A stretch of 50,672 nt of DNA from an uncultured Bacillota bacterium (lineage in GTDB: Bacteria > Bacillota_I > Bacilli_A > RF39 > UBA660). The notes beneath the pieces are model-generated. The model was not told the origin of the DNA and searched no databases. It saw nothing but the letters and a program-made list of their open reading frames with translations. Position 1 is the stretch's first letter; each line of letters starts with the position of its first letter. Location of the stretch: the NCBI GenBank assembly GCA_946622285.1, contig CAMOPK010000006.1, positions 1-50,672 on the forward strand. Direction: 5' to 3'. A program made the position numbers and the translations under genes. Below, in pieces: positions 1,479-31,258 of this stretch.

Positions 1479-1505
1479 AAAAAAACACCATAAGTATGGT
1501 GTTTT
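1479..1505 (-). terminator. intrinsic terminator after virD4-like gene
   Basis: An 11-base-pair inverted repeat (482-492 with 495-505) is followed on the minus strand by a T run. The virD4 stop codon lies at its upstream edge. Confidence 0.85.
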
Positions 1506-3855
1506 AATTATTATCATCAAAGAAGTCATCAAAGAAGTTATCATCTTTCTTCTCATCTTCAGAAGGTTCTTCAAAAATAATTTCTTCACTCTTCTTTAAC
1601 TCTTCATTATATTTACGATATTCTTCACTATAATCAGTTTTTTCATTCACGGTATTAATATCAGTAGATTGAACAAACTGATCATTGCTTGATACAAATG
1701 GAGTGTTTTGATTAGTTGACTCCACAAATGGATTAGTTGATTGAGCTGGATTAACCGGCTTTGTAATTTCATCATATTCGAAGTCAGAAGAAGTTGGTTC
1801 AATTGGCTTTGGAGCTTCAGTAACAGCATCTTTAACTTCATTTTTAGCTGCTGCAGCTTCGTTTTCTCTTTTCTCTTCTTCTTCTAATTCAGCGATCTTA
1901 GCATCAATCTTCTTAACAATCTCATCAATATCAAAATCTTGGTTGGGTTGTGCAGGTTTATTAGCTGCAAATGGTGATGATGCTCCAAAAGGAGTTGCAT
2001 TTGACCCACCAAATGGGCTTGCTGCATTTGAACCAAACATTCCGCCACCACCAAATGGACTTGCTACACCTGCTCCAAACATTCCGCCACCACCAAATGG
2101 TGAAGCTGAACCATCAGCACCGTTTGCTCCCATTTTTTCTTCACGTTTTTTGTTAACAAATGCTTTTAAATCGAACAACTGAACGTGATTTTCTTCTCTG
2201 ACTGGATATGTCGCTTTTTCATATTTCTTGCCCCAACGATTTTCTTTTTCCATCTCAAAGTTTGGTTTTAAAACAGTTTTAAATGGCATACAACGAGTTC
2301 TTAAAACTATTATAGTCCATAATTTTAAACGTTGAAGATCACTTACTGTAACAAGTGGAGTTGAAGCTGTTTTGTCTTTTTCTTTTGACTTAACTTCACC
2401 GCACATCTTACTGATTTCTTCTAAGGCTTTCATTTCACTACTAATTAAGTAGATAATATTACCACAGTTACCACGAATAGTATCACCATTTTCAGCACCA
2501 TACACTTGATTTAACTGTGCAAAGTTCTGAATGATAAAACTAAATCTTATTTGACGGCTTCTGGCAGCTGTTACCATTGTTGTAACATCTTTTAAAGGTG
2601 GCATGTTAGCAAACTCATCTAAAATGAAGTTTGTTCTATATGTTAGTTTTCCACCGCTTTCTTGAGCAACATCAATTAATGTTTCATAACATTGTTTTAC
2701 AAATATTGTAACTAATGAGTGATATGTCTTCTTCTCGTCTTGAATAACAATAAATACGGCTGTTTTTTTACGACCAATATCTTTCATGTCAAAATCGCTT
2801 CGACATAGCATTTCACTTAAATTTTCACGTGACGCAAACAATTTAATTTTTTGTTTAAATACTGACAAAATACTATTTTTAGTATCACTTGGTGCCATTA
2901 TTGTACTTGAAGCATTAACGTACGCTGGTGATGCTGGATCTTTAAAACCAAAGTATTCTTTGATATAAGTTGATGCCATCAATTTATCTTCACCAACAGT
3001 TGTCATTAAGTTAATACTGTTTAAGTTTATTTCTTCTTCTTTTGCATCTTCAAACAAACCTAGTGCTAAACCTGTAAAATAGTCAGCTGATGTCTTTTCC
3101 CAGAATGGGTCTTGATTTTGAGCTTTCTCATCATACAAGATATTCATTGCTAAGTCATCTAAAAGTTCGTTTGCTTTATCTTTATTACCTGCTTTATATA
3201 ATTCATAAGGTAATGTTAATGGGTTCCATGAGTTTCCTTTTTGAGGATCACGGAAGTTAAGAAGAACTACGTTATATCCTTTTTCTTTTAACTCGCTAGC
3301 ATTGTTTTCATAAATTTCACCTTTAGGGTCGGTGATAATCATTGATTCACCCTTTTTAGCCAATAATTTAACCATTGGCTGTACAAGCATTTCTGTTTTA
3401 CCAGAACCAGTAGAACCAATAATTAGATTATGGTATCCACCATTATCAACCCAGATGTCTCGTCCGTTGTTAATAAGTGGAATACCTGCTACTTGAGATG
3501 TTTTATCATCGGCATAGACATGTTTTAACTCTTTTTTGAATTCTTTATCTGTTGCCCATCTAGAATAACCACCTTTATCTTTCTTTGAAAATCCAAAGCC
3601 GAATCCTTTTTCCTTTTCAAAGAATTGAGAAGATGATCCAAATATGATTGATAATAAAACAATAATCCACACAACAATAGTTAACAAAAGTGAATCCATG
3701 TCTTCAAAAATTATAAATGGATTAATTCCAGCAAGTTGTCCATTTTGAGAAAAATCGATTATGTTAGCCATAATTATTGCCACAACAAGGAACATTGCTG
3801 CTGAAAAAATTAAAAATTTTATTACGTCGTCTTTATTGGCAGTTAGCTTAAACAT
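1504..3855 (-). CDS. VirD4/TraG type IV secretion coupling ATPase
   Basis: The 783-residue product has two N-terminal membrane helices (about 11-33 and 54-73), a Walker A GSTGSGKT at 147-154, the TraG motif MIITDPKGE near 172-180 and a Walker B with ILDEFAN near 411-417. These are hallmarks of the type IV coupling protein, a hexameric inner-membrane ATPase that hands substrates to the channel. After the ATPase comes an unusual extension: Gly/Phe-rich 14-residue repeats (about 584-630), a charged coiled segment, and an acidic C-terminus rich in Asp and Phe. In other systems an acidic C-terminus of the coupling protein recruits substrates; that role here is inference. It starts behind a GAGGTGAT ribosome site and is the last core gene of the locus. 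Confidence 0.93.
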   Translation of the reverse strand: MFKLTANKDDVIKFLIFSAAMFLVVAIIMANIIDFSQNGQLAGINPFIIFEDMDSLLLTIVVWIIVLLSIIFGSSSQFFEKEKGFGFGFSKKDKGGYSRWATDKEFKKELKHVYADDKTSQVAGIPLINNGRDIWVDNGGYHNLIIGSTGSGKTEMLVQPMVKLLAKKGESMIITDPKGEIYENNASELKEKGYNVVLLNFRDPQKGNSWNPLTLPYELYKAGNKDKANELLDDLAMNILYDEKAQNQDPFWEKTSADYFTGLALGLFEDAKEEEINLNSINLMTTVGEDKLMASTYIKEYFGFKDPASPAYVNASSTIMAPSDTKNSILSVFKQKIKLFASRENLSEMLCRSDFDMKDIGRKKTAVFIVIQDEKKTYHSLVTIFVKQCYETLIDVAQESGGKLTYRTNFILDEFANMPPLKDVTTMVTAARSRQIRFSFIIQNFAQLNQVYGAENGDTIRGNCGNIIYLISSEMKALEEISKMCGEVKSKEKDKTASTPLVTVSDLQRLKLWTIIVLRTRCMPFKTVLKPNFEMEKENRWGKKYEKATYPVREENHVQLFDLKAFVNKKREEKMGANGADGSASPFGGGGMFGAGVASPFGGGGMFGSNAASPFGGSNATPFGASSPFAANKPAQPNQDFDIDEIVKKIDAKIAELEEEEKRENEAAAAKNEVKDAVTEAPKPIEPTSSDFEYDEITKPVNPAQSTNPFVESTNQNTPFVSSNDQFVQSTDINTVNEKTDYSEEYRKYNEELKKSEEIIFEEPSEDEKKDDNFFDDFFDDNN
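2001..2110. repeat. 42-base tandem repeat inside virD4-like gene
   Basis: An exact 26-base copy occurs at 2033-2058 and 2075-2100, period 42 bases, with degenerate copies on both sides. It encodes the 14-residue unit GGGGMF...ASPF of the coupling protein. In-frame copy-number change is possible. Confidence 0.75.
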
Positions 3856-3904
3856 CTAAATCACCTCAATCGTTATATATTATAGCAAAGTATAATTTTA
3901 AAGT

Positions 3905-4615
3905 CTATATTCTATTTCTAAATTTAGCCCTTGTTCTAATACTACTTATAACAAATATTGCTACAATAACTAGTATTATTGTTATATAGACATAAGGGCT
4001 TACAAACTTAAGTAAATAAGCCGGATTATACGTATAAAGTTCATTACTTCTATACTCTAAATTAATTACTTTTGTCCCTGGAGTAGAAGAATTAAAATTC
4101 CACGTATATGTATTTGTTTCGGTATCAACCGAACTAGCATTGTGTTTTACTACTTTATATGGCAAACTTAAGTTTATTTCTACACCTTCAACTGTTGTAG
4201 GAAAGTCGCCACTAGGTTTATGATAATTTGCAGTTTCATTGTACCCTCGAGTATTCAATTTTACATAATGATCTTCTTCATCAACTGATAGACCATTAAA
4301 TATTGCATTTAGGGCTGGACTTTGATTAGAATATTTTGATGAATTTGGATATCTTTGATAAAAATCATAACCAAAATAATTACCATTATTAAAAGGCAAC
4401 TTTTTTGTAATCCAACTAAAATTATAATTTTTACCTGCTTGGCTCAAAAATTCTAAATATTTTGTTGAATATCCACCTTTTCCAAGTAAGGTAGAATTGA
4501 AAGAGATAGATCCAGTTTCAATATAATTCCCACCAAAATTTATCTGCAAATTGTATTTTGCTTTGCATCCAGTCAAAAGTACTAAAGCAAGCAATATAAA
4601 TATTTTCTTTTTCAT
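3905..4615 (-). CDS. LppM-like lipoprotein with C-terminal anchor
   Basis: The 236-residue product has a lipoprotein signal ending in LLTGC (Cys17), an extracytoplasmic beta-rich body, and a C-terminal hydrophobic helix (about 208-227) followed by basic residues. The arrangement (lipobox, YNLQINF-type beta strands, C-terminal TM) resembles the LppM-domain lipoproteins of Gram-positive bacteria; that match is by eye. It sits 7 bases after the 1000-residue protein and 49 bases before virD4, so it is probably a surface-exposed component of the secretion apparatus. It has an AGGTG ribosome site. Confidence 0.6.
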   Translation of the reverse strand: MKKKIFILLALVLLTGCKAKYNLQINFGGNYIETGSISFNSTLLGKGGYSTKYLEFLSQAGKNYNFSWITKKLPFNNGNYFGYDFYQRYPNSSKYSNQSPALNAIFNGLSVDEEDHYVKLNTRGYNETANYHKPSGDFPTTVEGVEINLSLPYKVVKHNASSVDTETNTYTWNFNSSTPGTKVINLEYRSNELYTYNPAYLLKFVSPYVYITIILVIVAIFVISSIRTRAKFRNRI

Positions 4616-4622
4616 TTTTCAC

Positions 4623-7600
4623 CTACCACATGCTAGTTATATTACCAACACCATTATAGTAATCATCTGCAAAATATATATGCGTGTATTTTGAATCTGA
4701 TTCACCATATGAAGTAATCTTTGTAACAATTAATCCCATATTATCATTTGCCTCAGCAACATATAAAGTTCCGTTACTCTTTCCAATAATAATTCCTATT
4801 CTAGAATCATTATATGCAAAATCCCCAACTTGAACTTTATCATAATATTTATATAATTCCGTTGTTATTTTTAAGTTGCCAACAACGTTATTACTTATAA
4901 GTTCATTTGAAGTCATTGATTTATCAATGTTTGCACCTCCATTTTTAAGTGCCCATGATACGAATCCAGAACTATCAAGTCCATCACTATACCATGTTTG
5001 ATTAAATCCTTCTTCAAAATATTTACCACCATTTTTATACGGTATTTTATAATTTAAACCAAGTACTAAATATCTAGCAGCTTCTACTACTCCTGCTCTC
5101 GTACCATATTTAGCATCCTCGATTTTATTTTTTAAATTTCTATTTATTCTTTCAATTTCTCCAAAAGAATATGAACTTTCGACTAAATTATCTTTATCAT
5201 TTTTTATGGAATATGCATTTACTCTAGACGCATATTCGTTGCAATAATTTTCATTAATATTAAAACTTGGATAATAAATTTTTAATACTTCCTTATATGT
5301 TTTTGCATTACTTAATTTTATTGCTTCAGTTATACATAGTTCATTATAAACAGCATTAGCATTTTTATCTTTTTCTGTTCTTGTACAAGTGTTTGAATAT
5401 TTTACATTTGCAAACTTATTAGCATATGTAAGTACTTGTCCCATTGTAGTACTAACAGCTTGATCAAGTTTTTCATATTCTTTTTCAGTTATTTTTATTT
5501 CTTGGTAATTACATTTTTTAATATCTATTTCTGTAGTACCAATCATATAATTGTTTTCATTTAATGTTTTAGTAGTAGTTATTAATGTTGCAGCTTTTAA
5601 GAATTCTACATCATCTATACCATCTTTAAAATTATTATAAATTTCTTCTTTAACATAATCATAAAATGGCATAGTCTTAATTAATTCATCATTACAATCA
5701 TGTAAATTTATTTTAATATTTTGAAAATTACATAAATTTGCTGTGTTTGTAAAACTACTACAATTTTGAACAAGCTCATTTGTGTTATAACTTATTCCAT
5801 TTTCACTGATCAATTTGAATGTCGTTTTCTTAGTGTTTGTACATCCACTATTTCCTTCAGTTGCAATGACATCTCCTTTTTTAATCTGATCTCCTACATC
5901 AACGCGGATTTCAGCTAAATTAGAATAAATTGCCATATATTCAACTTCATCATAAGTAAATTTTATCTTTATTTGTGAACCATTTGAGTTTTCGCATTCA
6001 ACTCCATCACATAAACATTTTCCTGATTTAGAATCGTATTTAGAATATATATTTTCGCCACTATATATAACTTCAACTACTTCACCATCACTAACACTAT
6101 ATATTTCATCACCATCTATATTCTTGCTAACGACATACTCATGTGTCAATGGATTATATTCTTCTAAGACAGCACATTTTGATTCACCATATATAGGACC
6201 TAAGCTATCAATTATAGTAGCATCAAGCCCGCCACCACTAAGATTTTCATAATATTGTTCTAATCCATCTGCTGCTGCTGATTCATAGATTCCAAGTTGT
6301 GAAACTGCATCATCAATAAAAGTTCTCTTGATCTCTGGAGTTGCATTGCCTCCATCGTCTTTGACTAAACTATTATATCGAAGTCCATAATAGTAATTTT
6401 CTAAAAAGTGTTTATATGTTGCTTCATCAAATTGATAGTCATTTGCCACCCTAATCCTATCATTAAGTGGATTTTGTTCATTTAAAATTAAATTATGATA
6501 AATGTTGGCTGGCGCCTCAATTAGACTTTTGAAAAAATTTTCCACACTACTAGTATCAATAGATAAACTTGAAATGTTAAATTTGTTTGCGAGTCCTTCA
6601 TAACCATTGCACGCTCCACCGCTTGCAGTTATTGTTCTAACTGCTTCTTCATAATCGCTTTGTGTAAGTTCACTAGTAGTACTTCGCAATGATTGATAAT
6701 ATGATTGTCCGTTCTTAGAAAGTCCTGCAAATGCAAGAATGCACGCATCCTCCGCTGTTTGCCTAAAAATGTCTCCTTGTGCAAAAAAAGCAGGAATATC
6801 GTCACTCAAAAGTTTTGGAACTTTTGCCACAAAATCATCGAAACTACTAAAATTAAAAATTTCGCTTATTGTTTTTTTATTGTCTCCAATATATGTTGTA
6901 TCATAAGTATATACTGGAGATAATATCCCTGCATTAATCTTACTTAATCTTTCTATTTCCGCTTTCCTGGTTTTTTCTTCTTCATCGCCAGATAATCCCT
7001 GTATCTGCTTATCAATATAATCATGGTTAGGAAGTGATACTGATAAATATACTTGGAATATATATGTACCACTTATTAGGTCCGTACCTGCTTCATTTAA
7101 AAATTCTACAATTGCAGCTTCATCAAATGAAAGTAATTTTATAATGAAACCAAATCTTTCAATAACTACTCCAGCTGCAGCAAAAATCAAAATCCCCATC
7201 AAGAGCAATTGGCCTACAGCAAGAAATATTGGAGATAGTGCAGATATGATTCCTGCTATAATTGAAGCTTTCTTTGCTTTAATGGTATTAACTAATTTAG
7301 CAAGAGTACCATTGGCTTCTGCTTTATCAACAATCTCTTTTGCAGCTGGTCCTGGAACACCTGCACCTTCTAAAGCTAATTTTGCTCCTTCTTTTACGGC
7401 TTTATCTTCGAGATTTTCTTTTTTTTGGCCGTTTTCGTCTAATTCTGAACCATCATTTGGATTTTCTGAATCATCTGTATTCTCTGCCTGGCTTTGAGCC
7501 GGATTTTGCCTTTGCATCTCATGCTCATGAAACTTCTCATTATCAAAAGAAGGCTGAGCTTTAGTATCTGGTGTTAACATGGCTCCGCCTCCGGTTTGAG

Positions 7601-7625
7601 AGAATCTATTATCTTTTGAAGCCAT
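4623..7625 (-). CDS. VirB1-like protein with inactive LytM and NlpC/P60 folds
   Basis: The 1000-residue product has a hydrophilic N-terminus, a membrane region (about 120-157), a long extracellular body, a LytM/M23-like beta domain (about 500-610) and a C-terminal NlpC/P60-like domain (about 850-990). In NlpC/P60 the catalytic motif is D-C-S-G-F; here it reads D-S-S-G-F with Ser885 (codon AGT) in place of Cys, and the H-V-G-I position reads R-I-G-I (Arg942). The LytM region keeps the VGDQIKKGDVIA strand but lacks the HLHFE ligand motif, having TTFKLI instead. The VirB1-type position next to VirB4 suggests a structural role in spanning the envelope rather than wall cleavage. Not a pseudogene: the frame is long and intact. 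Confidence 0.8.
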   Translation of the reverse strand: MASKDNRFSQTGGGAMLTPDTKAQPSFDNEKFHEHEMQRQNPAQSQAENTDDSENPNDGSELDENGQKKENLEDKAVKEGAKLALEGAGVPGPAAKEIVDKAEANGTLAKLVNTIKAKKASIIAGIISALSPIFLAVGQLLLMGILIFAAAGVVIERFGFIIKLLSFDEAAIVEFLNEAGTDLISGTYIFQVYLSVSLPNHDYIDKQIQGLSGDEEEKTRKAEIERLSKINAGILSPVYTYDTTYIGDNKKTISEIFNFSSFDDFVAKVPKLLSDDIPAFFAQGDIFRQTAEDACILAFAGLSKNGQSYYQSLRSTTSELTQSDYEEAVRTITASGGACNGYEGLANKFNISSLSIDTSSVENFFKSLIEAPANIYHNLILNEQNPLNDRIRVANDYQFDEATYKHFLENYYYGLRYNSLVKDDGGNATPEIKRTFIDDAVSQLGIYESAAADGLEQYYENLSGGGLDATIIDSLGPIYGESKCAVLEEYNPLTHEYVVSKNIDGDEIYSVSDGEVVEVIYSGENIYSKYDSKSGKCLCDGVECENSNGSQIKIKFTYDEVEYMAIYSNLAEIRVDVGDQIKKGDVIATEGNSGCTNTKKTTFKLISENGISYNTNELVQNCSSFTNTANLCNFQNIKINLHDCNDELIKTMPFYDYVKEEIYNNFKDGIDDVEFLKAATLITTTKTLNENNYMIGTTEIDIKKCNYQEIKITEKEYEKLDQAVSTTMGQVLTYANKFANVKYSNTCTRTEKDKNANAVYNELCITEAIKLSNAKTYKEVLKIYYPSFNINENYCNEYASRVNAYSIKNDKDNLVESSYSFGEIERINRNLKNKIEDAKYGTRAGVVEAARYLVLGLNYKIPYKNGGKYFEEGFNQTWYSDGLDSSGFVSWALKNGGANIDKSMTSNELISNNVVGNLKITTELYKYYDKVQVGDFAYNDSRIGIIIGKSNGTLYVAEANDNMGLIVTKITSYGESDSKYTHIYFADDYYNGVGNITSMW

Positions 7626-7648
7626 GTTATCACCACCATTCTTTTAAA

Positions 7649-9439
7649 TTATAGTCCGCCACCTCGACCGAATGAATCTAATTCTTCTTCAGTCGCGATA
7701 ACATTTATACGCATACGTCTGCTTCCACAAACAAACAAGGCTTCTCCTTGTGAATATCTCTTTATACTATCCTGTTCACTCTCATTTAAATCAATTAAAC
7801 GAGCTAAATCCTCAACAGCTTGTTTCTTTAATCCCATTACCAAGTAATAAGAAGCATTATCAAATATTGCTTTACCTTGAGTAATTACTGATGGATCACT
7901 AAAGTCACTAGGTTGCTGTGTGATAATTATTGTTCCGGTATTATATTTACGAGAACGTCTTTGAATTTGTGCTAAGAAATCAGCACCTAAAGTATTATTA
8001 CTTCCTAAAAGAACATGAGCTTCATCTACCATTAATATAGTATTAACAGTTCTATCTAAAGTTAAGCTCCACGCATATTTTAATATGTTGAAGAAAAGTG
8101 CATTTCTTACATTCTCATCAGCGTTCATAACTTCACGAATATTAAATACAATAAATCTACTGTTTGTTTTAATTGTAGTGTGTCCTGAGAAATAATACTT
8201 TAATTCTCTTACAAGAGGTCTTACTTTTAATTCTAATCGTTCCATAATGTCTTTTTCATGAGTTCTATCAGTCATTGACATCAAACGACCTCTGATTGTT
8301 TCATAAACATCTGCTAATGTTGGATAATCTTCAGAAGTAAATTTGCTAAAATCACTTTGATGATTAATACCAAAACGTGCATATGTTTCTTGAACTACTT
8401 CACTAAATAATGTTAATACATCATCTTCAATGTCTGGAGCATAGTATTTCATAAATGCTTTTAATGTTTGCAAAGTTCTTGTTAAAATTGCAAATCCAGA
8501 ACCTGAAATTTGTTCATCTTCATCACTATCAACAACTATTTCAAGTGGGTTTATCATACCGAATTCGCCACCTTTACCCAAGTTGATGAAATCTCCATTA
8601 AAGACTCTAACCATGTCTTCAAGTTCACCTTCTGGGTCAATACATACTAGTTGGTGATTATTTCTTATGTTTGCACGTAAAAGTATTTTAGCAGCAGTAG
8701 ATTTACCACTACCTGATGTGCCTAAAATAATCATATTAGCATTATTTCGGTTATGTTCTTTCTTAATTTGATATAAGAATTGGTTAAATAGAATTACACC
8801 ACCGGAGAAGTCTACTCCGAATAATGTTGCCATTCCAGCATCCTTTATACTATCAAAAATGAAAGGATACATTGCTGCAATTGTTGGAGATGGAATTGGA
8901 ACTCCAATTCTATCTTCAATATCATGTTGTTTAGGGAAGATTGGAACAATTGATTTTAAAACCTTCTCTTGTTCAAATCTAAGTGGAATAGCTTTCAATT
9001 CCATTGATTCTAAATAATTCTTTAATTGCATTTTTTTGTTTTGCAATTGTTCTTGAGTATCAGCTGTTAACATTACATGCATTTGAAAATCAAATATGTT
9101 AGATTGATTAGCAGCTATCATTTGAATGAAATATTCCAAAGATTCGTAGTCTTGACGAATTCTTTCTTGAATTGTTTTATCATTTTCTTCTTGATATCTT
9201 TGCTTTAAATCAGCTATTTCTTTATTTAACATCTTGCTGATTACACTAAAAGGTAATGGAATATGTTTAATGATAACCTTTATCCCTGGAATACTTGTTA
9301 GTGATGATAAGTAACCTGGATCAATATATTTCGGATATGAAATAACTGTCATTATAGTTGCCCATTGATCACTAATAATAAATTCTGCTGGTTTAAATTG
9401 TAACCCCTTTGGGGCTAATTCTGCTTTTAAATTAGCCAT
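7649..9439 (-). CDS. VirB4 ATPase, C-terminal part
   Basis: The 596-residue product carries the VirB4/TraE signature: middle domain with an EIADLKQRYQ-type coiled coil (about 70-115), Walker A GTSGSGKST at 240-248, the CIDPEGE strand near 266-272, and Walker B ILMVDEAH near 468-475. VirB4 is the conserved motor of all type IV secretion systems. The usual N-terminal domain is missing here and is encoded by the gene just upstream, whose stop shares a base with this start (TAATG). Together they make about 780 residues, the size of an undivided VirB4. The two proteins therefore probably act as one motor. Confidence 0.93.
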   Translation of the reverse strand: MANLKAELAPKGLQFKPAEFIISDQWATIMTVISYPKYIDPGYLSSLTSIPGIKVIIKHIPLPFSVISKMLNKEIADLKQRYQEENDKTIQERIRQDYESLEYFIQMIAANQSNIFDFQMHVMLTADTQEQLQNKKMQLKNYLESMELKAIPLRFEQEKVLKSIVPIFPKQHDIEDRIGVPIPSPTIAAMYPFIFDSIKDAGMATLFGVDFSGGVILFNQFLYQIKKEHNRNNANMIILGTSGSGKSTAAKILLRANIRNNHQLVCIDPEGELEDMVRVFNGDFINLGKGGEFGMINPLEIVVDSDEDEQISGSGFAILTRTLQTLKAFMKYYAPDIEDDVLTLFSEVVQETYARFGINHQSDFSKFTSEDYPTLADVYETIRGRLMSMTDRTHEKDIMERLELKVRPLVRELKYYFSGHTTIKTNSRFIVFNIREVMNADENVRNALFFNILKYAWSLTLDRTVNTILMVDEAHVLLGSNNTLGADFLAQIQRRSRKYNTGTIIITQQPSDFSDPSVITQGKAIFDNASYYLVMGLKKQAVEDLARLIDLNESEQDSIKRYSQGEALFVCGSRRMRINVIATEEELDSFGRGGGL

Positions 9440-9993
9440 TATGACATCACCGTCCCAAACTTAGTGGTTTTTCCTGCATTGAAGAAATTATCGAGTAATA
9501 CTCGTAAATCTTCATTGCTTACTTGTCTTGTTGCTAAACCAGCATTAGCAAAGTTATTAATTAAATTTCTAATTCGTTTTTGAATTGTTTCATCATTTTT
9601 TTCTTTAAACAATAAGTAAAACTCTGTATCTACTACATCATTTTGCATAAATTGTTCACCTTTTCGCATATCCTGCATAATTAATTTTTTGCGCACAGGA
9701 TCGGTTTCATTTTGATATGCAAGTTCCAACTGCGACATATAAACGCTTATATCAACAGGTCTATCTGCAGATATAATCCAGAACTCATAATCAATTAAGT
9801 TGTAAACAACTCTTAAATTACTAATTACTGAGTTCATCATTTCAGGTCCCATGATGAATATGTTTTTTGGCATTATTTTTACACCAGTTACTTTTTCCTT
9901 TGTGTTCAAAAGAATGCAGTTGTTTGCTATTTCTTTAACTGGTAAGAAATCCTCAGTATATTTACTTCTTGTCTGGTTCGTCGTTGAAGGCAT
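9439..9993 (-). CDS. VirB4 N-terminal domain as a separate protein
   Basis: The 184-residue product ends exactly where the VirB4 ATPase gene begins (TAATG) and has no ATPase motif. Its start resembles the N-terminal domain of VirB4/TraC proteins: KYTEDFLPVKEI followed by a strand with ANNCILLNTKEKVTGV, then a helical region with YNLIDYEFWII. It overlaps the PrgI-like gene by 32 bases in a different frame. Order PrgI-VirB4 is the classical Gram-positive arrangement. The split looks real because both pieces keep good starts and tight coupling, but a single ancestral gene interrupted by a stop cannot be excluded from one sequence. Confidence 0.8.
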   Translation of the reverse strand: MPSTTNQTRSKYTEDFLPVKEIANNCILLNTKEKVTGVKIMPKNIFIMGPEMMNSVISNLRVVYNLIDYEFWIISADRPVDISVYMSQLELAYQNETDPVRKKLIMQDMRKGEQFMQNDVVDTEFYLLFKEKNDETIQKRIRNLINNFANAGLATRQVSNEDLRVLLDNFFNAGKTTKFGTVMS

Positions 9994-10291
9994 CTTTTAC
10001 ACACCATCCTTTCCATACAAATACTTGTCTATTTGTAAAAAATTCCCATATTGATTTTATAATCGTCCGAACATTGTGATAGTTAGGTATCGGTGATACC
10101 AACAAAATTGCAACTAATGCAGGGATTAAAACAATAAACGTATCTAATGCTTCGCTCGGACCAACTACCATTAATAATAGTAATGATGTTCCTGCTCCAA
10201 CTGAAAATATTATTAAATCAAGCCCGTTGAAAAGTCCAAATATCAACATAGATTTTTTGGAGTTCGCCGGTATTAAAAATCTTCCATTCAT
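9962..10291 (-). CDS. PrgI/VirB3-like membrane protein
   Basis: The 109-residue product has two adjacent membrane helices (about 15-35 and 45-65) after a short polar N-terminus beginning with an RFLIPANSKKS stretch. This is typical of the PrgI family, the Gram-positive counterpart of VirB3, which sits directly before virB4 and helps place the motor at the membrane. The start shares a base with the stop of the VirB6-like gene (TAATG), and a GGAGG site lies in the end of that gene. The C-terminal region with VFVWKGWC is also usual for the family. Confidence 0.8.
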   Translation of the reverse strand: MNGRFLIPANSKKSMLIFGLFNGLDLIIFSVGAGTSLLLLMVVGPSEALDTFIVLIPALVAILLVSPIPNYHNVRTIIKSIWEFFTNRQVFVWKGWCVKDAFNDEPDKK

Positions 10292-12591
10292 TATTTTTTA
10301 CCTCCATCGCCAGATTTTTTGGCATTCATTTCGTTAGCAGTGGCCCTTCTATAACCCTCACTATTTCGATCAATAGAACTCTGAACTTGTCCAGCTTTAG
10401 ATGCATCCGAAATACGTGTAAATCCACCTTTTGTTGGGTCATATGCATCTCTGACAACTCTGTCAGAAGAGTGTGTAATAGTTCTTTGTAATCCTTCAAA
10501 CATAGCATCGGCTTCAGCGTCGCGTTCAACCGCATCACCTGTTGTAGTTGTAGCCGTACCTGCAAGAATATTGTTGTATGCGTGTTCTTGCATTTTTTTG
10601 GTAATTCCCTCAAACTCAGTAATATCAACTCTTCTTGTTGTTGCATGTCCTGTAGCGTCGACAGCAGCTACATCTATGTGATCTAGCCCTTTGCTTCTAG
10701 CAATATTCATTTGAGATAAAATACTATTATAGCCAACACCAGCGGCAGCTCTTAAGCCACCACCTAAATCAGATCCAGCTACTGAAACATTGTTCTTCAA
10801 TGCGACTTTATCTAATTGACCGGCTAAAGCATCTTGACCTTTTTTAATGTTGTCTCTTGCTTCCATCACACGATCCATTTTTTGTCTTGTTGTTTCAATT
10901 CCTAATGATTGTTCAAATCCTGCGGCTACTCTTCCTAATCCGGTTGCACCAGCTTCCATTGCACGATCACGTTCTTGTCTTCCAACAACTGCATCGTGAG
11001 CCCCAGATTTTACTGCACCAACGATTGCACCTGGTGTTAAGCCACCTTTATCATTTTTAGCACCATTTACTGCACCACGCACTGCTCCAGCTAGCATACT
11101 ACCACCATACTGTGAAGCATTATCTCGTTTAAATTGTCTATCTGCTTGATGTGCAGCCCACCTAGCTTGTGCAAGGTTTTGTCCATTAGCTATTGCATTA
11201 TTAAAGGCTTCATTGCGCAAATTCTTTCGCGTTTCACGATCTCGCCATCTATTTCCAATATTTGCAGCCTTATGAATAGCATTGGCAGCCATGCCACCAA
11301 CAGCTCCAAGGCCAGCATTAATTGCACGTCGTCCCGCAAGATCATCGCCTAATTTTTTCTTCAAATTGAAGTTGCCAGTTTCAAATTTAACACCTAAATC
11401 TTTTAATATATCAGGTAACTTCTTAGCAAAAGTTAATGCACCTAATATTAAGAATAATTCAACAAAGAATTCTCTAGACTTAATTAAGTTTTCATCTTTT
11501 AATAGAGTATTTATGAAAAATACTGCTATTTCTAAACCCGCTATTCGCGTAAATAAATCAGCATAAGTTTTTAATACTTGTGAAAACCACTTATTAAGCA
11601 TTGTTTCTTTTCCATCTTTAGGTCCAATATATGAAACTATCGGAATTGGAGCTATAAGTTCATAGAATGAAAGTTTAACACTTCGAAGTGCTATATCAAT
11701 ACACATTACAATTAACATGTAGCCAATGAATATTCCGACTAATGTTGTACCTATAAATGGATATTCATATTTTGCATAAAATGTATGGGTTTCCCAGTTT
11801 CCTTCGCCACCAAGTGCCATCAAAGCTCTCAAATCATATTTGTCCCCCGTAGGATACGCTGCTTTAAATAATGTTGATCCATAATTTGAGTCCGTTTGAA
11901 ACTCTGTATCTCCTGTACCAAGTCCACAAAAAGCAGTACAAGTAGAGCCAGCCCCAGAGGCACAGCTAATATTTCCACTCACTGTATTAACACTTATATT
12001 AGCGTCCCATCTACCATGTTCGCACAGTTTATCATCAGCGTTGTTCACTCCTCGTTGACCCGCAACTGTTTTACAATCATCCGTACACATATATGGAGTT
12101 ACAAAAAGAATCCCGACCGTATGCATAAATTCATATCCGCTTGAAACATTGGCAGTATTACCCTGTCCAAATACAAAATATTCAATTATACCTTCTTCTA
12201 AAATTAACTGTTGCACAATTCTTGCTTGTTGGAAACCCCAAGGTGTTACAATTATTAAACCTAAAGTAATAATCATTTTTTTAAGAACATTTTGATAACC
12301 TTTTGTTTTATCAAGCATATCATCTGGATTTACAATATATGTTACAAACAAGAATATTAATCTAAATACCATTATGAGTGCTAAAAGTTGATATACTCTC
12401 CCTGCGACTTCATTTAAAGTACCTTTACCAAATATTTCCTGACGTGCTATTTTAACAATTAAATCATATAATTCAGCATCTGCAGTATATATTAATCCAT
12501 CAATAAAAGTTACTAATTTTCGCAACAATATTGGCAATGTAAAACCGAAGAAATCTTCAAAAATAAAGCCGAGCATTTTAAAAAAGTCCAT
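10291..12591 (-). CDS. VirB6/TrbL-like polytopic channel protein
   Basis: The product (766 residues from the ATG at 12591, spaced 7 bases from GGAG) has membrane helices in residues 1-140 and about 280-410, and a long extracellular loop between them (about 150-275) rich in Cys (at least seven), probably disulfide bonded. The segment with DIALRSVKLSFYELIAPIPI is typical of VirB6/TrbL proteins of Gram-positive T4SS. Beyond the last helix is an Ala/Gly/Asp-rich soluble tail of about 350 residues with many charged repeats, presumably cytoplasmic. VirB6 proteins form the inner-membrane channel. An ATG two codons earlier lies too close to the ribosome site. Confidence 0.85.
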   Translation of the reverse strand: MDFFKMLGFIFEDFFGFTLPILLRKLVTFIDGLIYTADAELYDLIVKIARQEIFGKGTLNEVAGRVYQLLALIMVFRLIFLFVTYIVNPDDMLDKTKGYQNVLKKMIITLGLIIVTPWGFQQARIVQQLILEEGIIEYFVFGQGNTANVSSGYEFMHTVGILFVTPYMCTDDCKTVAGQRGVNNADDKLCEHGRWDANISVNTVSGNISCASGAGSTCTAFCGLGTGDTEFQTDSNYGSTLFKAAYPTGDKYDLRALMALGGEGNWETHTFYAKYEYPFIGTTLVGIFIGYMLIVMCIDIALRSVKLSFYELIAPIPIVSYIGPKDGKETMLNKWFSQVLKTYADLFTRIAGLEIAVFFINTLLKDENLIKSREFFVELFLILGALTFAKKLPDILKDLGVKFETGNFNLKKKLGDDLAGRRAINAGLGAVGGMAANAIHKAANIGNRWRDRETRKNLRNEAFNNAIANGQNLAQARWAAHQADRQFKRDNASQYGGSMLAGAVRGAVNGAKNDKGGLTPGAIVGAVKSGAHDAVVGRQERDRAMEAGATGLGRVAAGFEQSLGIETTRQKMDRVMEARDNIKKGQDALAGQLDKVALKNNVSVAGSDLGGGLRAAAGVGYNSILSQMNIARSKGLDHIDVAAVDATGHATTRRVDITEFEGITKKMQEHAYNNILAGTATTTTGDAVERDAEADAMFEGLQRTITHSSDRVVRDAYDPTKGGFTRISDASKAGQVQSSIDRNSEGYRRATANEMNAKKSGDGGKK

Positions 12592-12683
12592 ATGCATTCT
12601 CCATCTATTCTATTATTTTTTGCTATTTTTATATATATTATATTATAACATACTTTACAACATAATTGTATCTATTTTGCAAC

Positions 12684-13990: not shown

Positions 13991-14788
13991 TTAAATATTC
14001 ATCATGGTTAACATTGCAAACATCAATAGTGCTAATACACCACCACCTGTGCATGTAAGCATGATCATTGTTTTGTTTTCCATTGTATCTAAACGCGCTT
14101 GATACTTTTGCTCACGGGCTTTATTTTGTAAAACTGAAACATTCCTTGCAAATAAAGCAAGTTGCTCTTGCTTACTATCTTGAGAACCTAGTCCTAATCG
14201 ATAAAGCAAACGCATCATACGCATAGAATCACGTACTGGATAAGTTTTTGCAAATTCCATATATGGATCTACCGAAGAATCTCCGGCATCAATTCTTGCA
14301 ATTAAACGTTTTAGTCCTTCTTGAAAAACAATTGGCGCTGTATTAATTGACTTTGCAATTGCAACAGGCACAGTATAATGTTGAACAAGAATTTCTAAAC
14401 TTTTTAAATAGTATGGCAACATTTGATTAATGTTGTTTAAATTTCTTTTATAATATTTTTTTAATTTGTTATATGGATCTTTAAACATTAAATATCCAAC
14501 TGCAACTGCAGCTAATGAATATACAAGTGATAATTGCCCAGCTAATGCTAAAACTAATACCATTATTGCTGTTGTAAGTCCAAATATCATAAGTCTTTTT
14601 GAATATAATGCATTAACATCTATTCCTGCTCCATACTTTATTTTTAGAAGAAATTCATAATCTTTTTCCATCATGAATTTAAATATTGGAGCAATATTTT
14701 CTTCCATTCCCTTTGAGGTCAAAACTCCATTTGCAATTAATATGACAACTAAAATTGCTGGAATACCTATTATTACTAATAAATCCAT
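13991..14788 (-). CDS. TadC-like pilus platform protein
   Basis: The 265-residue product is a type II secretion F-domain protein: N-terminal membrane segment, a helical cytoplasmic half with KSLEILVQHYTVPVAIA and the TYPVRDSMRMMRLLYRLG region, and a C-terminal membrane segment. It starts on the stop of tadB (TAATG), so the pair is translationally coupled as in Tad operons. TadB and TadC form the inner-membrane platform above the ATPase. Confidence 0.85.
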   Translation of the reverse strand: MDLLVIIGIPAILVVILIANGVLTSKGMEENIAPIFKFMMEKDYEFLLKIKYGAGIDVNALYSKRLMIFGLTTAIMVLVLALAGQLSLVYSLAAVAVGYLMFKDPYNKLKKYYKRNLNNINQMLPYYLKSLEILVQHYTVPVAIAKSINTAPIVFQEGLKRLIARIDAGDSSVDPYMEFAKTYPVRDSMRMMRLLYRLGLGSQDSKQEQLALFARNVSVLQNKAREQKYQARLDTMENKTMIMLTCTGGGVLALLMFAMLTMMNI

Positions 14789-15693
14789 TATTCAGCACCT
14801 ACATTCTCATTGTAATATTTTTCACCATTTAGAAGGAAATATGTGTTTCCTATCAATATTAAGTGAATCAAAATATTAACTAATATATTTTCTTTAATCA
14901 TTGCAATGTAAACGTCAATACCAATTAAGAATTCTACTAATAAAGCCATAATATAGAGTACACAACCGAATTGAATAAATTTCCTGTGGAATACAGCTCT
15001 ATCCATACGGTCGCGATATACAGCTTCAACAAGCATATCAATGTCAGATGACATATTTTCTAGTGCCATTGCGGAGTCTTTTGAACCTTCGTTTGTGATT
15101 TGTAAGAAAAGTTGATGCATATTTTTAACAATAAAGAAATCATATTTAGCGTTAAAGAATTCTATTGATTGTTCAATTGAACCATTTTTATATGCCAAAT
15201 CAATCATAACTTTAACATCTGACTTAACAGGATCTTCTAATACTCCTGATGCATATACACCTTCAATTGCTCTTACAAATGCTTGAGTTGTTGCAAATTC
15301 CATAATTGTGTTTGTTGTATAAGTTTGAATTTGTTCAAAGATAAATTCACTATATAATCTTTTACAACGTAAATATGATAGATATGGAACCACACATATT
15401 GCTGCTAGTGCATATATCAAACTAATTATTATATTGTAAAAATAAAAGTATGAAATAACAGCTGCACAGCCAGAATATAGAATAATTTGAGTCGTATACT
15501 GCCTAACAGTATATTCTTGACCTAATTGTTTGATTTTTTCACGAATTTGTTTAAATGAATAAGGGGCATATTTCTCATAGGCAACCCCAACGGCATCTAC
15601 AATTGTATTATAAACACCACGTCCAGAACTTTGCCAATTAACAAACAAATATAGCAAAATGAACGCTATTAGTACCAATATTACCGCAGGCAC
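14788..15693 (-). CDS. TadB-like pilus platform protein
   Basis: The 301-residue product has an N-terminal membrane helix, paired helices near 75-110, a cytoplasmic F-domain (about 120-235) and C-terminal membrane helices. It starts at GTG 15693, spaced 5 bases from GGGGTG. It lies 12 bases after tadA/cpaF and is coupled to tadC. Family assignment is by layout and gene order with moderate sequence resemblance to the T2SSF domain (GVLEDPVKSDVKVMIDLA). Confidence 0.85.
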   Translation of the reverse strand: MPAVILVLIAFILLYLFVNWQSSGRGVYNTIVDAVGVAYEKYAPYSFKQIREKIKQLGQEYTVRQYTTQIILYSGCAAVISYFYFYNIIISLIYALAAICVVPYLSYLRCKRLYSEFIFEQIQTYTTNTIMEFATTQAFVRAIEGVYASGVLEDPVKSDVKVMIDLAYKNGSIEQSIEFFNAKYDFFIVKNMHQLFLQITNEGSKDSAMALENMSSDIDMLVEAVYRDRMDRAVFHRKFIQFGCVLYIMALLVEFLIGIDVYIAMIKENILVNILIHLILIGNTYFLLNGEKYYNENVGAE

Positions 15694-15705
15694 TATATCA
15701 CCCCT

Positions 15706-16896
15706 TTACATGAATAAAACTTCTTCAGTTTGATTAGCAGCATTATTTTGAACTGCTGCAGGTTGAACTCCACCGTTTTTTGCAATTGCATCATTAACTT
15801 CAATTTCACCAGACTTAGATGATTCTGTATTACCTTCATCATCAGTTGGAACTATTGCATCGGCTTCTAGAGTTACACCTTGTGCATCTAAATAATCAAT
15901 TAAATATTTAGATGGCGCTTTTTTAATTACCTTACCCGTAGAAGATTTTCTAAAAATTGTGTTATAAACTGCATTGTTATCTTCATCTACATAGAATTCA
16001 GTAACTTCTGCAATTTCACGTTTAAAACTCTTCGTTTTTGGATCTTGATAACCTCTTATATATACACCTAATTGAATGTAACGATAAATAGATTTTAAGA
16101 ATTGTTCGATATCTTGATTGGTCTCAAGCAAACTATACATACGGTTAGGTATAGATGCTGCTTTATCAGCATGTATTGTTGATAATATGTAGTGTCCTGA
16201 TGAAATAGAGTTACGAACTGCCATTACAGCTTCAGCACTACGAACTTCTGATAGTAAAATCCATTTTGGATTTTGACGCATACAAGTAACTAAGATATCA
16301 CTATAAGATACAATGTTATTTGTTTTCATTGCAACTATATCTCTTTCAGGAAATATCTTATCCAAATGAAGTTCTAATGTATCTTCTACAGTTATTATTT
16401 TTTCATTCTCACGAATCTTTGAAGCTAGATATTTTACAAATTCTGTTTTACCAGAACCAGTTTCTCCACAAACTATAATGTTGCAATGTCCTTGAATTGC
16501 CTTCATTAAAAGTTCGTGAATATCTAGTGAAATATAATTGTCTGCTAATATTTTTTCTTTTTGTAAACGAATCTTAGCAGGTGTCTTTCTTATTACACAT
16601 GCAATGCCGTTTTTAGCAACAGAGTCATGTACAAAATTAAGACGAATTTCAGAGCCTTCAGCATCTAAGAACGGGCTTGCAGAGTTAAATGTTTTACCCA
16701 TTATATTAGAACACTGGAAAGCTATTTTTTCCATCAACGCATTAGTTACGTCTTTATTTTCTTCCCTGTAGATTCCTTTGGATAATGTTTTGATCCAAAG
16801 TTGGCCATTATTAGTATAGGAAATATCGGTTACATCATCATTTTTTAAGTATACATCTAATGAACCGAAATCTATTTGACCAAATAAATCATCCAT
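15706..16896 (-). CDS. TadA/CpaF secretion ATPase (VirB11 superfamily)
   Basis: The 396-residue product has an N-terminal domain, Walker A GETGSGKT at 144-151, the Asp box TVEDTLELH (about 169-177), Walker B ILLSEVRSAEA (about 213-223) and the His box STIHADKA. This is the CpaF/TadA family that powers Tad pilus assembly and is homologous to VirB11. Walker B reads LLSEVR where GEVR is more usual. The last 100 residues form a hydrophilic extension with Asn/Gln. It starts on the stop of the CpaB-like gene (TAATG). Since Gram-positive T4SS usually lack VirB11, this ATPase could serve both halves of the locus. Confidence 0.92.
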   Translation of the reverse strand: MDDLFGQIDFGSLDVYLKNDDVTDISYTNNGQLWIKTLSKGIYREENKDVTNALMEKIAFQCSNIMGKTFNSASPFLDAEGSEIRLNFVHDSVAKNGIACVIRKTPAKIRLQKEKILADNYISLDIHELLMKAIQGHCNIIVCGETGSGKTEFVKYLASKIRENEKIITVEDTLELHLDKIFPERDIVAMKTNNIVSYSDILVTCMRQNPKWILLSEVRSAEAVMAVRNSISSGHYILSTIHADKAASIPNRMYSLLETNQDIEQFLKSIYRYIQLGVYIRGYQDPKTKSFKREIAEVTEFYVDEDNNAVYNTIFRKSSTGKVIKKAPSKYLIDYLDAQGVTLEADAIVPTDDEGNTESSKSGEIEVNDAIAKNGGVQPAAVQNNAANQTEEVLFM

Positions 16897-17873
16897 TAAT
16901 TATTATCTCTTATTTCTACAGTAGCATTTTTAATTAAGTCTTCAATTTGACTATGATTAACTTGAGTTACTGAATTACCTTTATATGTTTTTCCATCTAC
17001 TACAGGGTAAATTGACATTGAATACTCAGATGCTTCTAATTTTTGTGCTTTTCTAATTAATTTAATAATTTCACTATCTAGAGTAAAGACAAAATATGAT
17101 GGATATAATTTGTTTTCATGATCAGCAAATACATTGTTACCATTTGCATCTAGAACTGCTAATACTTTAGCACCTGTTACAAGTGGTCCGGTTATATATT
17201 CTACATTTCCACTTCTTGTTGTATTTTGCGCGTCAACATAAATATCAACTACGTCGCCTGGCATAATTGAATTACCATATGTTTTTTCTAAATCTACATT
17301 TATCATAATTGCTGCATCTTGTTCAATTAAATCTTTAAAAATTGAGTTTGGTGCAGTATTAGTTGAAGATAATGCTTCAGAATAGAAAAGTGAATTTGCT
17401 GGAATAATTGTGTCATAATTAACATATTTTCCAATTATTTCTTCAGCGTTAGTAACTGCCTTAACAGTTCTTAAAGTTGAAGCAGGAACATCAATATATT
17501 CAATGTGTTCTTCTGTAATTCTTGTTCCAGCTTTAATTCTTTCTTTTGCAACTGGTACACTACTTACAATTTCTAAATTTTTATTTAATTGATAATTATA
17601 AGTAAAATATAAAATTGCAACAATTGCTAAAACGCCAAGAATTGTTACAAGTTCTCTACTTAAAAAACCTTTTTTCTTTTTGACTGGCGCAGGTTTATTC
17701 CCTTCTTTGATAAATTGGCTAGCATTATTAACTTTTGGTTGTGGTGCTGGGCCAACATTATTTGCAGTAAAATTGTTGTTTGCTACAGGTCCAGCATTGT
17801 TTGGCTGAACTGGATGTTGATTTAAATTTTGTTGTCCACTTGGATTTGTTGGACCATTAGGATTTTGATTCAT
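16896..17873 (-). CDS. CpaB/RcpC-like SAF domain protein
   Basis: The 325-residue product has an Asn/Pro/Gln-rich cytoplasmic N-terminus (about 1-65), one membrane helix (about 75-95), and an outer domain beginning VPVAKERIKAGTRITEEHI, which is the SAF fold of CpaB/RcpC. A second beta-rich domain follows with MINVDLEKTYGNSIMPGDVV. In Gram-negative Tad systems CpaB interacts with the secretin; Gram-positive Tad loci keep it without a secretin. It has a strong AAGGAGG site and precedes tadA with a one-base overlap. Confidence 0.85.
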   Translation of the reverse strand: MNQNPNGPTNPSGQQNLNQHPVQPNNAGPVANNNFTANNVGPAPQPKVNNASQFIKEGNKPAPVKKKKGFLSRELVTILGVLAIVAILYFTYNYQLNKNLEIVSSVPVAKERIKAGTRITEEHIEYIDVPASTLRTVKAVTNAEEIIGKYVNYDTIIPANSLFYSEALSSTNTAPNSIFKDLIEQDAAIMINVDLEKTYGNSIMPGDVVDIYVDAQNTTRSGNVEYITGPLVTGAKVLAVLDANGNNVFADHENKLYPSYFVFTLDSEIIKLIRKAQKLEASEYSMSIYPVVDGKTYKGNSVTQVNHSQIEDLIKNATVEIRDNN

Positions 17874-17888
17874 TTTTATTCCTCCTTA

Positions 17889-18314
17889 TTATTTTATATT
17901 TGTAACTGGTCTTGTTGGATCAGTTTCCAAAATCGCATTTATTGAATTTGTTAATGTATATTCCCCGTGATAGCCAACAGAATCCGTTGCTTCACTACTC
18001 AAAACTCTTATATTAACGAGTGGTGGATTAGTTTGAATTTTGTAAAAATCAATCTTATATGTTGAACTTAATTGAGCATTCTCTGCAAATCTTCTTATAA
18101 AACTTTCGACAAATGCAGCTTCGCTTATTTGGACAGTACCATCTTTTTTATAAGCGTCCCAATCAACCGCATCATTCATTGATGCCTCAGTAACTTCTTT
18201 TAGTAATACCATATTGTGTTCATCTGTATTAGTTACATTTTGAAAAAAGAATATAACAAATATTAATACAATACCTATTACAATTACCAAATATCCCCAC
18301 ATAGACTCTTTCAC
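17889..18314 (-). CDS. TadE-like single-helix protein
   Basis: The 141-residue product begins at GTG 18314, behind AGAGGTG with 8-base spacing. It has a five-residue N-terminus then a membrane helix (about 6-26) and a soluble domain with a Glu/Asp-rich middle. The start KESMWGYLVIVIGIVLIF resembles small membrane proteins annotated as DUF5411 and, in layout, TadE-like minor pilins. It lies 15 bases before the cpaB-like gene. Confidence 0.6.
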   Translation of the reverse strand: MKESMWGYLVIVIGIVLIFVIFFFQNVTNTDEHNMVLLKEVTEASMNDAVDWDAYKKDGTVQISEAAFVESFIRRFAENAQLSSTYKIDFYKIQTNPPLVNIRVLSSEATDSVGYHGEYTLTNSINAILETDPTRPVTNIK

Positions 18315-18328
18315 TTTTTAATCACCTC

Positions 18329-18946
18329 TCAGATAAAGTCTTTTTCGTGCTTTTCACGAACTATAAATATTAATAACAAAGTTAATCCAAACAAGGCAAG
18401 GCCAGCAAAAATGTAAAAATAAGTAGCGTTTGATTCATATTCTATTACTTTTACGTCTGGTTTTTTTAAACTCTCACGATATTCGTCTGTTTGTTTTTTT
18501 AGTACTTCTTCAGTGATTGAAGCACTTAATGTCTGCCATTTCCTACAAGAAGAAAATTCACTTATACCCTCACAATACTTTGTACCATAGTACTTATTAT
18601 ATTTTGGGAGAGCAATATCCTTTGAACCAACATTTCTATCGTTGCATTCCTTTGAATAAATCTCAAAGCTTAATTTTTGATTGTCAGCTAAATTTTCTAT
18701 CACAAATTCCGATTTTGTATATTTTTTACTTGTTGATGTATCAATTATATATAAATCTTCATAGAGATTGCTAACTATTATGTTAAAGCGCATCTCATTT
18801 TTTACTAAATAATATTCATATGCCCAACTGATATTTCTTGCTAAGTTTCTTTTTTCGGCTTCTTCTCCCCAATCACAGTCTTTTGCCGATACAAGAAATG
18901 GCAAAAGTGATAGCAGAACAAGCATATACTTTATACATTTTTTCAT
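18329..18946 (-). CDS. secreted protein with C-terminal membrane anchor
   Basis: The 205-residue product has a signal peptide ending about LVSA (residues 1-21), an extracellular domain with at least five Cys, and a C-terminal helix (about 173-195) with a basic cytoplasmic tail. I do not recognise the family. It is placed 14 bases before the TadE-like gene, so it is probably a surface subunit of the same apparatus. Confidence 0.6.
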   Translation of the reverse strand: MKKCIKYMLVLLSLLPFLVSAKDCDWGEEAEKRNLARNISWAYEYYLVKNEMRFNIIVSNLYEDLYIIDTSTSKKYTKSEFVIENLADNQKLSFEIYSKECNDRNVGSKDIALPKYNKYYGTKYCEGISEFSSCRKWQTLSASITEEVLKKQTDEYRESLKKPDVKVIEYESNATYFYIFAGLALFGLTLLLIFIVREKHEKDFI

Positions 18947-24190: not shown

Positions 24191-26089
24191 CTACTTTTCA
24201 ACAAAGTATATCCCCTCTACTATTGAGCGACATGAGTCGCGATTACTACCATCAGAGCATTTTACTCTAGTAACAGTTGTTTGACCTGGTTTTTTATAAA
24301 ATAAACTAGTCGAACCTCCACCATCTAAATTGAAGGCTGTTTTACAACCAAGTTTTACAAGTAGATCAGCCATATCTGCATAACAAGCATTATATATAGT
24401 TGTAAACATAATATAGTTGTTTGAATTGACTTGGCAAATTACTTGTCTTTGAGCCATTTCTTTCTTCCATGAATTTACTTGGCCGTTTTTAACTAATAGT
24501 GGATCAAAATCCCATGTGTTTTTGGTTTTGTCAGCCATTATTGCATTATATAATTTCTCTCTATCATTAGGATTTTTAGCATTACCATAAATTTTTAAAT
24601 CTCCATTTGAGTCAATCCCAATTATAGTTCTTCCAGGGCCATCACTTTCAGTTATTCTTTTTCGAGTAACTTTTCCATCAATTAAGACAACCCAACTACT
24701 TGAACGGTTATGATAGAAATCGCTTGGTGGTTCCCAAGCACCTTTTACATAAAATCCACTTGCATTATAGCCTATTGCTGCTTTTGATGATGAAATCATG
24801 CCATGTGAAATATATGAATTCATCATTTCTCCAACAGTCGCCCTGACAGGAGATTTACCAGCACTTGCAAGCTCACTATCTGTCATTATTTTCCCATATT
24901 TTGCTGTATTTGAATCAAGTTTTTTAATTTGATTATATGGATCCGCCATCCAAATATATGTTAAATAATAACTTGATTTATTTTGAACATAATATTTTAA
25001 TGTTTCGCCTTCATATTTAATATTTGCTGAAGTTGGAACAATTGGTGCTTCTGTCGATTTAACTGTTATTGTCGCAGTTGCACTTACTCCATCGCAAGTA
25101 ACAGTTATCTTGGCAGTGCCATCTGCAACGCCCGTAACTGATCCTGCATTAACTGTTGCAACTTTAGTATTATTCGAACTCCAATTAATACTATCGCAAG
25201 AAGCATTTGAAGGTTCAATTTTAGAAATTGATAAAGTTGCTTTGCCTTTTGGCTTAATTTTAATACTTGTTTGATTTAATGTAATACTTTTAACATTAGT
25301 CTTAGTCACTTTTATGACAAATTCATATAGATCTCCATTAGTTAAAGTTGCTGTAACAGTTGCCGTTCCTGCTATTTTGGCAGTTATTTTTCCTTTTTGA
25401 TCAACAGTAACAACATTACTATTATTACTTTGCCATGTTTTAACTGTTCCTTCATCTACTACTAATGTTTTGCTTGTATTTGTATACATATCTATTTTTC
25501 TTGTAACAGTAGGATTCCCAATACTATTAACTGTATAGCTTAAAGCTGTTATGTTTCCAGCTCTATCTCTTACATAACCTATGTACTTACCATTGCTACT
25601 TACTATTAAAGTATTTTTATTAGACCAATTCTTTTTATCCCATGAATATGCATCAGATGCTAATCCAATATCATCAGATGCCTTTATTGTTAATTTTGCT
25701 GCGAGGTCTCGTTCTTTACTATCTATGCTAATTGATCCTGTAGGAGGATTTTTATCAATATTTGTTACACTCGCTGTACAGCTTTCTTTTGATTTGCCAT
25801 CTGTTGCAAAAAAAGTATATGTACCATTTTGACTTACGACTGCTTCATAGATTGTTTGATTTGTGTTTACACCTTCATTAGTCTGAACAGTTGCGTTTTC
25901 ACCATTCGCAGTAACACGTATCTTAACATCAGCATTTGTTGGTAAACTGTTAACTAAAACTGCATTACAAGATAATTTTCCACTGCTTGGAGTACCTAAC
26001 AACAAAAATATTACAAAAATTATTGCAATTATTACTATAATAATTAATATTGTTGTACCTATTTCGTTAGAATTATCCCTATTATCCAT
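24191..26089 (-). CDS. BIG2 and phosphodiester glycosidase (NAGPA) surface protein
   Basis: From the ATG at 26089 (GGTG, 6-base spacing) the product has 632 residues. After a membrane helix (about 10-32) come an Ig-like domain, a domain with SIDSKERDLAAKLTIKASDD, two BIG2 domains (WQSNNSNVVTVDQKGKITA and WSSNNTKVATVNAGSV) and a C-terminal NAGPA domain ending in FNLDGGGSTSLFYK, the usual NAGPA signature. NAGPA enzymes cleave phosphodiester-linked sugars, and bacterial ones act on wall or exopolysaccharide phosphodiesters; the substrate here is unknown. A start at 26128 is in frame but lacks a ribosome site. Confidence 0.85.
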   Translation of the reverse strand: MDNRDNSNEIGTTILIIIVIIAIIFVIFLLLGTPSSGKLSCNAVLVNSLPTNADVKIRVTANGENATVQTNEGVNTNQTIYEAVVSQNGTYTFFATDGKSKESCTASVTNIDKNPPTGSISIDSKERDLAAKLTIKASDDIGLASDAYSWDKKNWSNKNTLIVSSNGKYIGYVRDRAGNITALSYTVNSIGNPTVTRKIDMYTNTSKTLVVDEGTVKTWQSNNSNVVTVDQKGKITAKIAGTATVTATLTNGDLYEFVIKVTKTNVKSITLNQTSIKIKPKGKATLSISKIEPSNASCDSINWSSNNTKVATVNAGSVTGVADGTAKITVTCDGVSATATITVKSTEAPIVPTSANIKYEGETLKYYVQNKSSYYLTYIWMADPYNQIKKLDSNTAKYGKIMTDSELASAGKSPVRATVGEMMNSYISHGMISSSKAAIGYNASGFYVKGAWEPPSDFYHNRSSSWVVLIDGKVTRKRITESDGPGRTIIGIDSNGDLKIYGNAKNPNDREKLYNAIMADKTKNTWDFDPLLVKNGQVNSWKKEMAQRQVICQVNSNNYIMFTTIYNACYADMADLLVKLGCKTAFNLDGGGSTSLFYKKPGQTTVTRVKCSDGSNRDSCRSIVEGIYFVEK

Positions 26090-26126
26090 ATCATTCACCA
26101 TTATAATAATACCATTTTTTAGGTAC

Positions 26127-26151
26127 AAAAAAAAGATATTAATCTTTTTTT
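26127..26151 (-). terminator. terminator after HTH gene
   Basis: Stem 129-137 with 142-150 (9 base pairs), T8 on the minus strand. The stop codon is in the loop. Confidence 0.8.
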
Positions 26152-31224: not shown

Positions 31225-31258
31225 ACATAATCATCACATAATTATGTGACGATTATGT
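31225..31258. promoter_or_regulatory. 34-base palindrome upstream of htrA
   Basis: Centre between 31241 and 31242; the inner 16 bases TCACATAATTATGTGA are perfect, then one mismatch pair (31233/31250), then eight more pairs. It runs from the Abi stop codon to 27 bases before the htrA ATG. It lacks a T run, so it looks more like an operator for a dimeric regulator than a terminator. Confidence 0.6.

Follow-up and report, generated by a model that had tools for sequence, protein, structure and literature searches.

A VirB1-slot protein with three degenerate wall-hydrolase folds, a probable pseudoenzyme of a chromosomal type IV secretion system in RF39-type Bacilli

RF39-type Bacilli carry a family-wide type IV secretion system (T4SS) on the chromosome. 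In one genus the protein in its VirB1 slot is probably a pseudoenzyme, which would serve as a non-enzymatic scaffold or regulator while the wall is cut in trans. The gene was identified in the window, the whole stretch of 50,672 nucleotides that was analysed, and the features are listed in Table 1. In both sampled species of the genus, three folds are kept, as are the membrane anchor and the position within the operon, while the three active sites are lost. Judged from the sequence, the protein appears to lack any competent wall-hydrolase domain, residues having been lost in the three recognised folds. The fuller picture has about an even chance of being right: a working T4SS in a walled cell, with a dedicated VirB1 that would be wholly non-enzymatic, its three folds reused structurally or regulatorily and its hydrolases borrowed from the cell.

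Table 1. Features of the T4SS locus, of the VirB1-slot protein and of the Tad/Flp-like neighbours (window positions)
Feature	Position	Strand	Basis
VirB1-slot protein, 1000 aa, TM + M23 + SpoIID + NlpC/P60 folds, all degenerate	4623..7625	-	ORF + Pfam + HMM alignment
VirB4 ATPase, directly upstream of VirB1-slot gene	7649..9439	-	Pfam AAA_10 and P-loop_TraG
Lipoprotein, directly downstream of VirB1-slot gene	3905..4615	-	Weak LPAM_1 match; position conserved
VirD4-type coupling protein	1504..3855	-	Pfam T4SS-DNA_transf
Hydrophobic membrane segment, residues ~119-157 of VirB1-slot protein	7155..7271	-	Hydropathy scan
Degenerate M23/LytM fold, residues 494-605	5811..6146	-	Pfam; structure matches
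H495, sole M23 metal ligand retained (first Zn ligand)	6141..6143	-	
V499 where HxxxD has its Asp ligand	6129..6131	-	
N569 at conserved His of YAH	5919..5921	-	
K600 at first His of HxH	5826..5828	-	
T602 at second His of HxH	5820..5822	-	
Degenerate SpoIID fold, residues 636-734	5424..5720	-	Pfam, genome search, HMM alignment
N665 at SpoIID catalytic Glu column	5631..5633	-	
Degenerate NlpC/P60 fold, residues 808-1000	4626..5204	-	AF2, Foldseek, relative's domain
S885 (AGT, in D-S-S-G-F) at nucleophile Cys	4971..4973	-	
R942 (AGA, in R-I-G-I) at catalytic His	4800..4802	-	
T2SSE-type ATPase (Tad/Flp-like neighbour)	15706-16896		
RcpC/CpaB (Tad/Flp-like neighbour)	16896-17873		
DUF5411 (Tad/Flp-like neighbour)	17889-18314		

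The reading frame starts at ATG and follows the standard code. The protein resembles VirB1-like proteins in its location in a T4SS locus beside VirB4 and VirD4, and in its N-terminal membrane anchor followed by wall-hydrolase-type ectodomains. Residues 161-470 matched no Pfam family. Tad/Flp-like neighbours were identified beside the T4SS genes (window 13991-18946). Elsewhere the window encodes a phosphodiester glycosidase (NAGPA) that carries Big_2 repeats, and also an Abi_2 protein (24191-26128 and 31258-32190).

The M23/LytM fold was matched by Pfam at residues 504-606 (E=3e-8). The Zn ligands HxxxD and HxH of a peptidase M23 are incomplete, H495 being the only one retained. The first-pass annotation had observed that the LytM-like region lacks the HLHFE ligands; this is borne out by K600 and T602, and V499 and N569 add to the losses. 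An M23 fold lacking a full Zn site is the mark of degenerate LytM scaffolds and activators, and the protein carries it. The AF2 model of residues 470-760 has a pLDDT of 70, weaker overall than that of the NlpC model. For its M23 part the structure matches include LytM (E 6e-7) as well as the degenerate LytM proteins EnvC, DipM, SpoIIQ and PrgK-LytM. A joint M23 and SpoIID alignment (A6) set the SpoIID rows onto M23 columns and was discarded, alignment A5 being folded instead; the SpoIID part of the resulting model rests on two sequences.

The first-pass annotation had counted two wall-hydrolase folds and missed the SpoIID one, which makes three. SpoIID was identified by Pfam at residues 648-734 (E=1e-5, above the curated cut-off). 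The Glu after YxxGVxxxE, which we take to be the catalytic residue of SpoIID, is replaced by N665, and the protein thus lacks the mark of a SpoIID lytic transglycosylase.

The third fold, NlpC/P60, is beyond the reach of Pfam and was recognised by its 43% identity to the intact NlpC domain of a relative and by its structure. The AF2 model of residues 808-1000 (pLDDT 90.4) has as best solved match MepS, an NlpC/P60 enzyme (Foldseek E 0.004, probability 0.99). The earlier reading of Ser in D-S-S-G-F and of Arg at the H-V-G-I position was correct, and the Cys nucleophile and the His of an NlpC/P60 enzyme are both absent. The domain contains no Cys and a single His (H982), distant from the motif. 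A shifted active site with another Cys and His was considered and is ruled out by the absence of Cys from residues 808-1000; the match of the model to MepS-type NlpC/P60 folds likewise speaks for an unshifted alignment. The NlpC-region Glu (E958) is retained in one of the two genus species. In the NlpC domain tree the branches are long, and the tree is compatible with an origin of the domain either within the locus family or among surface NlpC proteins that stand alone.

The T4SS (locus at window 1504-12597) is a near-core trait of the family, and the slot after VirB4 is a hot spot for the swapping of hydrolase modules. VirB4 was present in 120 of 141 family genomes, mostly at 64-90% identity, and of 60 loci compared across the family most have the gene order VirB4, VirB1-slot protein, lipoprotein and VirD4. 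A scan of the genome contigs with the VirB1-slot protein as query gave no matches, whereas the scan with the VirB4 alignment did. The comparison set comprises 112 distinct slot proteins from the same locus (370-1154 aa), 110 of them with a hydrophobic membrane segment before residue 260, and the hydrolase modules vary: SpoIID, M23, CHAP, NlpC/P60, C39-like, glucosaminidase, lysozyme, YkuD, GDSL and M15. The full 57-way alignment (A1) was too divergent for reading at residue level. The literature search on an RF39 T4SS found no paper in the collection searched. One record (L131), titled Christensenella sp. UBA3700, has a VirB4 identical to that of the window; its relatives are RF39-type Bacilli and the title looks misassigned.

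With few exceptions, the M23, NlpC/P60 and SpoIID active sites in these slot proteins are intact. In the 43 with M23 the Asp is kept in 41 and each His column in 40-43; the NlpC Cys is kept in 20 of the 22 covering that column and the His in 25 of 27; the SpoIID Glu is kept in 45 of 51 aligned proteins, among them a few that match only weakly. Exceptions for M23 and NlpC are the window protein, its counterpart in the sister species G115 and L091, whose M23 has Asp at the last His. SpoIID Glu is replaced by Lys in L143 and L145, with M23 intact. RF39-type orthologues such as G016/L072, G120/L081 and G087/L087 are like the window protein in the slot after VirB4, the TM anchor and the pairing of M23 with NlpC/P60, but their M23 and NlpC motifs are intact. 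Among the 112 slot proteins, whose M23, SpoIID and NlpC/P60 active sites were read individually, only those of this genus were seen to have all recognised folds predicted, from their residues, to be dead; about eight proteins without a recognised hydrolase domain stand outside this judgement.

The genus, one of gut bacteria with very small genomes, was sampled by two species, the window genome and G115 (record CACXGO010000014, RUG11241). The M23 columns read H,V,N,K,T in the window protein and H,I,N,K,T in G115, and the SpoIID Glu column reads N in both. The comparison of orthologues at positions 885 and 942, proposed in the first-pass annotation, gave a divided result: the NlpC Cys and His columns (S,R in the window protein) are equivalently lost in G115 (S,K), whereas other locus orthologues keep Cys and His; the losses are more than a chance event. 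The two genus species cluster with full support in the VirB4 tree, which is consistent with a single origin.

The membrane-anchored protein would bind peptidoglycan and act as a scaffold or regulator where the channel crosses the wall. By analogy with the degenerate LytM of PrgK and SpoIIQ, it may bind the wall or partner proteins and so organise the channel. Wall cutting would be supplied in trans by intact M23, SpoIID or NlpC/P60 enzymes of the host. The host genome (968 kb, 88% complete) was covered by family searches for wall genes and hydrolases, and encodes stand-alone proteins with intact motifs: M23 (HKGID, HVHFE), SpoIID (GVLYGE) and NlpC/P60 (DC.., HVGI). Its contig C10 gave two NlpC/P60 readings (L001 and L002) that have an N-terminal half in common (Big_2, about 300 aa) but differ in their NlpC domains; the two loci overlap, and the common half may be one DNA stretch read twice. 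The scaffold suggestion of the first-pass annotation is favoured by the losses in both genus species, the kept folds and locus order, and purifying selection. This reading is limited by a fixed state sampled in two species, by residues 161-470, which could hide activity, and by the retained H495 and, in one species, E958.

The main rival, although an unlikely one, is a dead-enzyme adhesin, whose folds would attach to peptidoglycan on an adjacent cell, whether recipient or target, and not mainly to the cell's own wall. According to a 2025 review, an adhesin role has been proposed for inactive VirB1 homologues in some Gram-positive systems, how widespread this is being unknown; it cites lactococcal TraAd/TrsAd (PMC12857230), which cause cell clumping (PMC11067333). 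However, TraAd/TrsAd themselves were described with catalytic residues present, and conjugative mating is not established here: the MobA-type relaxase (PF03432) was not found in the window genome, although VirB4 and VirD4 are intact, and the T4SS may therefore be non-conjugative. A second VirD4-like protein was identified on contig C18 of the same genome.

Residual catalysis through an unrecognised site, either in the N-terminal region or with Ser885 as nucleophile, is a little less probable still. It would fit the lack of a Pfam match for the N-terminal region, and serine enzymes that hydrolyse peptidoglycan are known. However, the N-terminal region (161-469) is poorly conserved, with 34% identity between the two species, and the His partner of Ser885 is lost too (Arg in the window protein, Lys in G115), the domain lacking Cys or a suitable His.

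Improbable as well is a decaying gene, left over from an active VirB1 that the lineage has ceased to need. The slot protein evolves fast in comparison with VirB4 (~47-48% vs 90% identity between the two species), and dN/dS values of 0.17 (M23), 0.29 (NlpC) and 0.50 (SpoIID) are rough figures, since dS is ~1-1.8 and near saturation. They are nevertheless well below 1, M23 being the most constrained, the frames of 1000 and 825 aa are open and intact, and the same positions are lost in both species; VirB4 and VirD4 are intact, with dN/dS of 0.06-0.08. At dN/dS of 0.17-0.5 between the two species the folds are constrained despite their dead sites, and simple decay does not explain the protein.

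A host with peptidoglycan absent or greatly reduced, where a hydrolase would be needless as the first-pass annotation had alternatively suggested, is very improbable: some related orders have lost peptidoglycan, but a wall is predicted for most RF39 (PMC10868615), and the host encodes MurC, MurD, MurE, MurF, MurT, a class A PBP and a PBP2-like transpeptidase (assigned by sequence reading) besides its intact hydrolases, so that a wall-less host was rejected and wall loss is not the reason for the dead sites.

The scaffold or regulator reading bears on how VirB1 proteins are understood, as these are usually described as the wall-cutting part of the T4SS, PrgK having already shown regulatory roles for some of its own domains. 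A genus with every recognised fold apparently dead amid about 100 mostly intact locus homologues offers a test, set by nature, of what VirB1 does without enzyme activity, and the same case tests whether a T4SS needs a hydrolase of its own.

The closest precedent is PrgK, the VirB1-like protein of pCF10 (LytM-MUR-CHAP), which likewise belongs to a T4SS, is anchored in the membrane and has three hydrolase-type folds outside the cell. Neither HxxxD nor HxH is present in the LytM of PrgK, the structure of this LytM (8s0u) was among the structure matches, and LytM and CHAP down-regulate the PrgK muramidase (PMC11323569). PrgK differs in its active muramidase and in the Cys and His kept in CHAP, whereas the window protein has SpoIID as the middle fold and no complete active site. 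Lactococcal TraAd/TrsAd are also VirB1-like and are the proposed adhesins (PMC11067333, PMC12857230), but have two domains, in which the predicted catalytic residues are in place. SpoIIQ, EnvC and DipM share with the window protein an M23 fold whose Zn site is incomplete, and which in these proteins binds partners or activates other hydrolases; the SpoIIQ of B. subtilis, whose LytM lacks one Zn ligand, binds SpoIIIAH (PMC4982068). These three differ from the window protein in having one dead fold and in standing outside any VirB4/VirD4 T4SS, SpoIIQ serving a sporulation channel.
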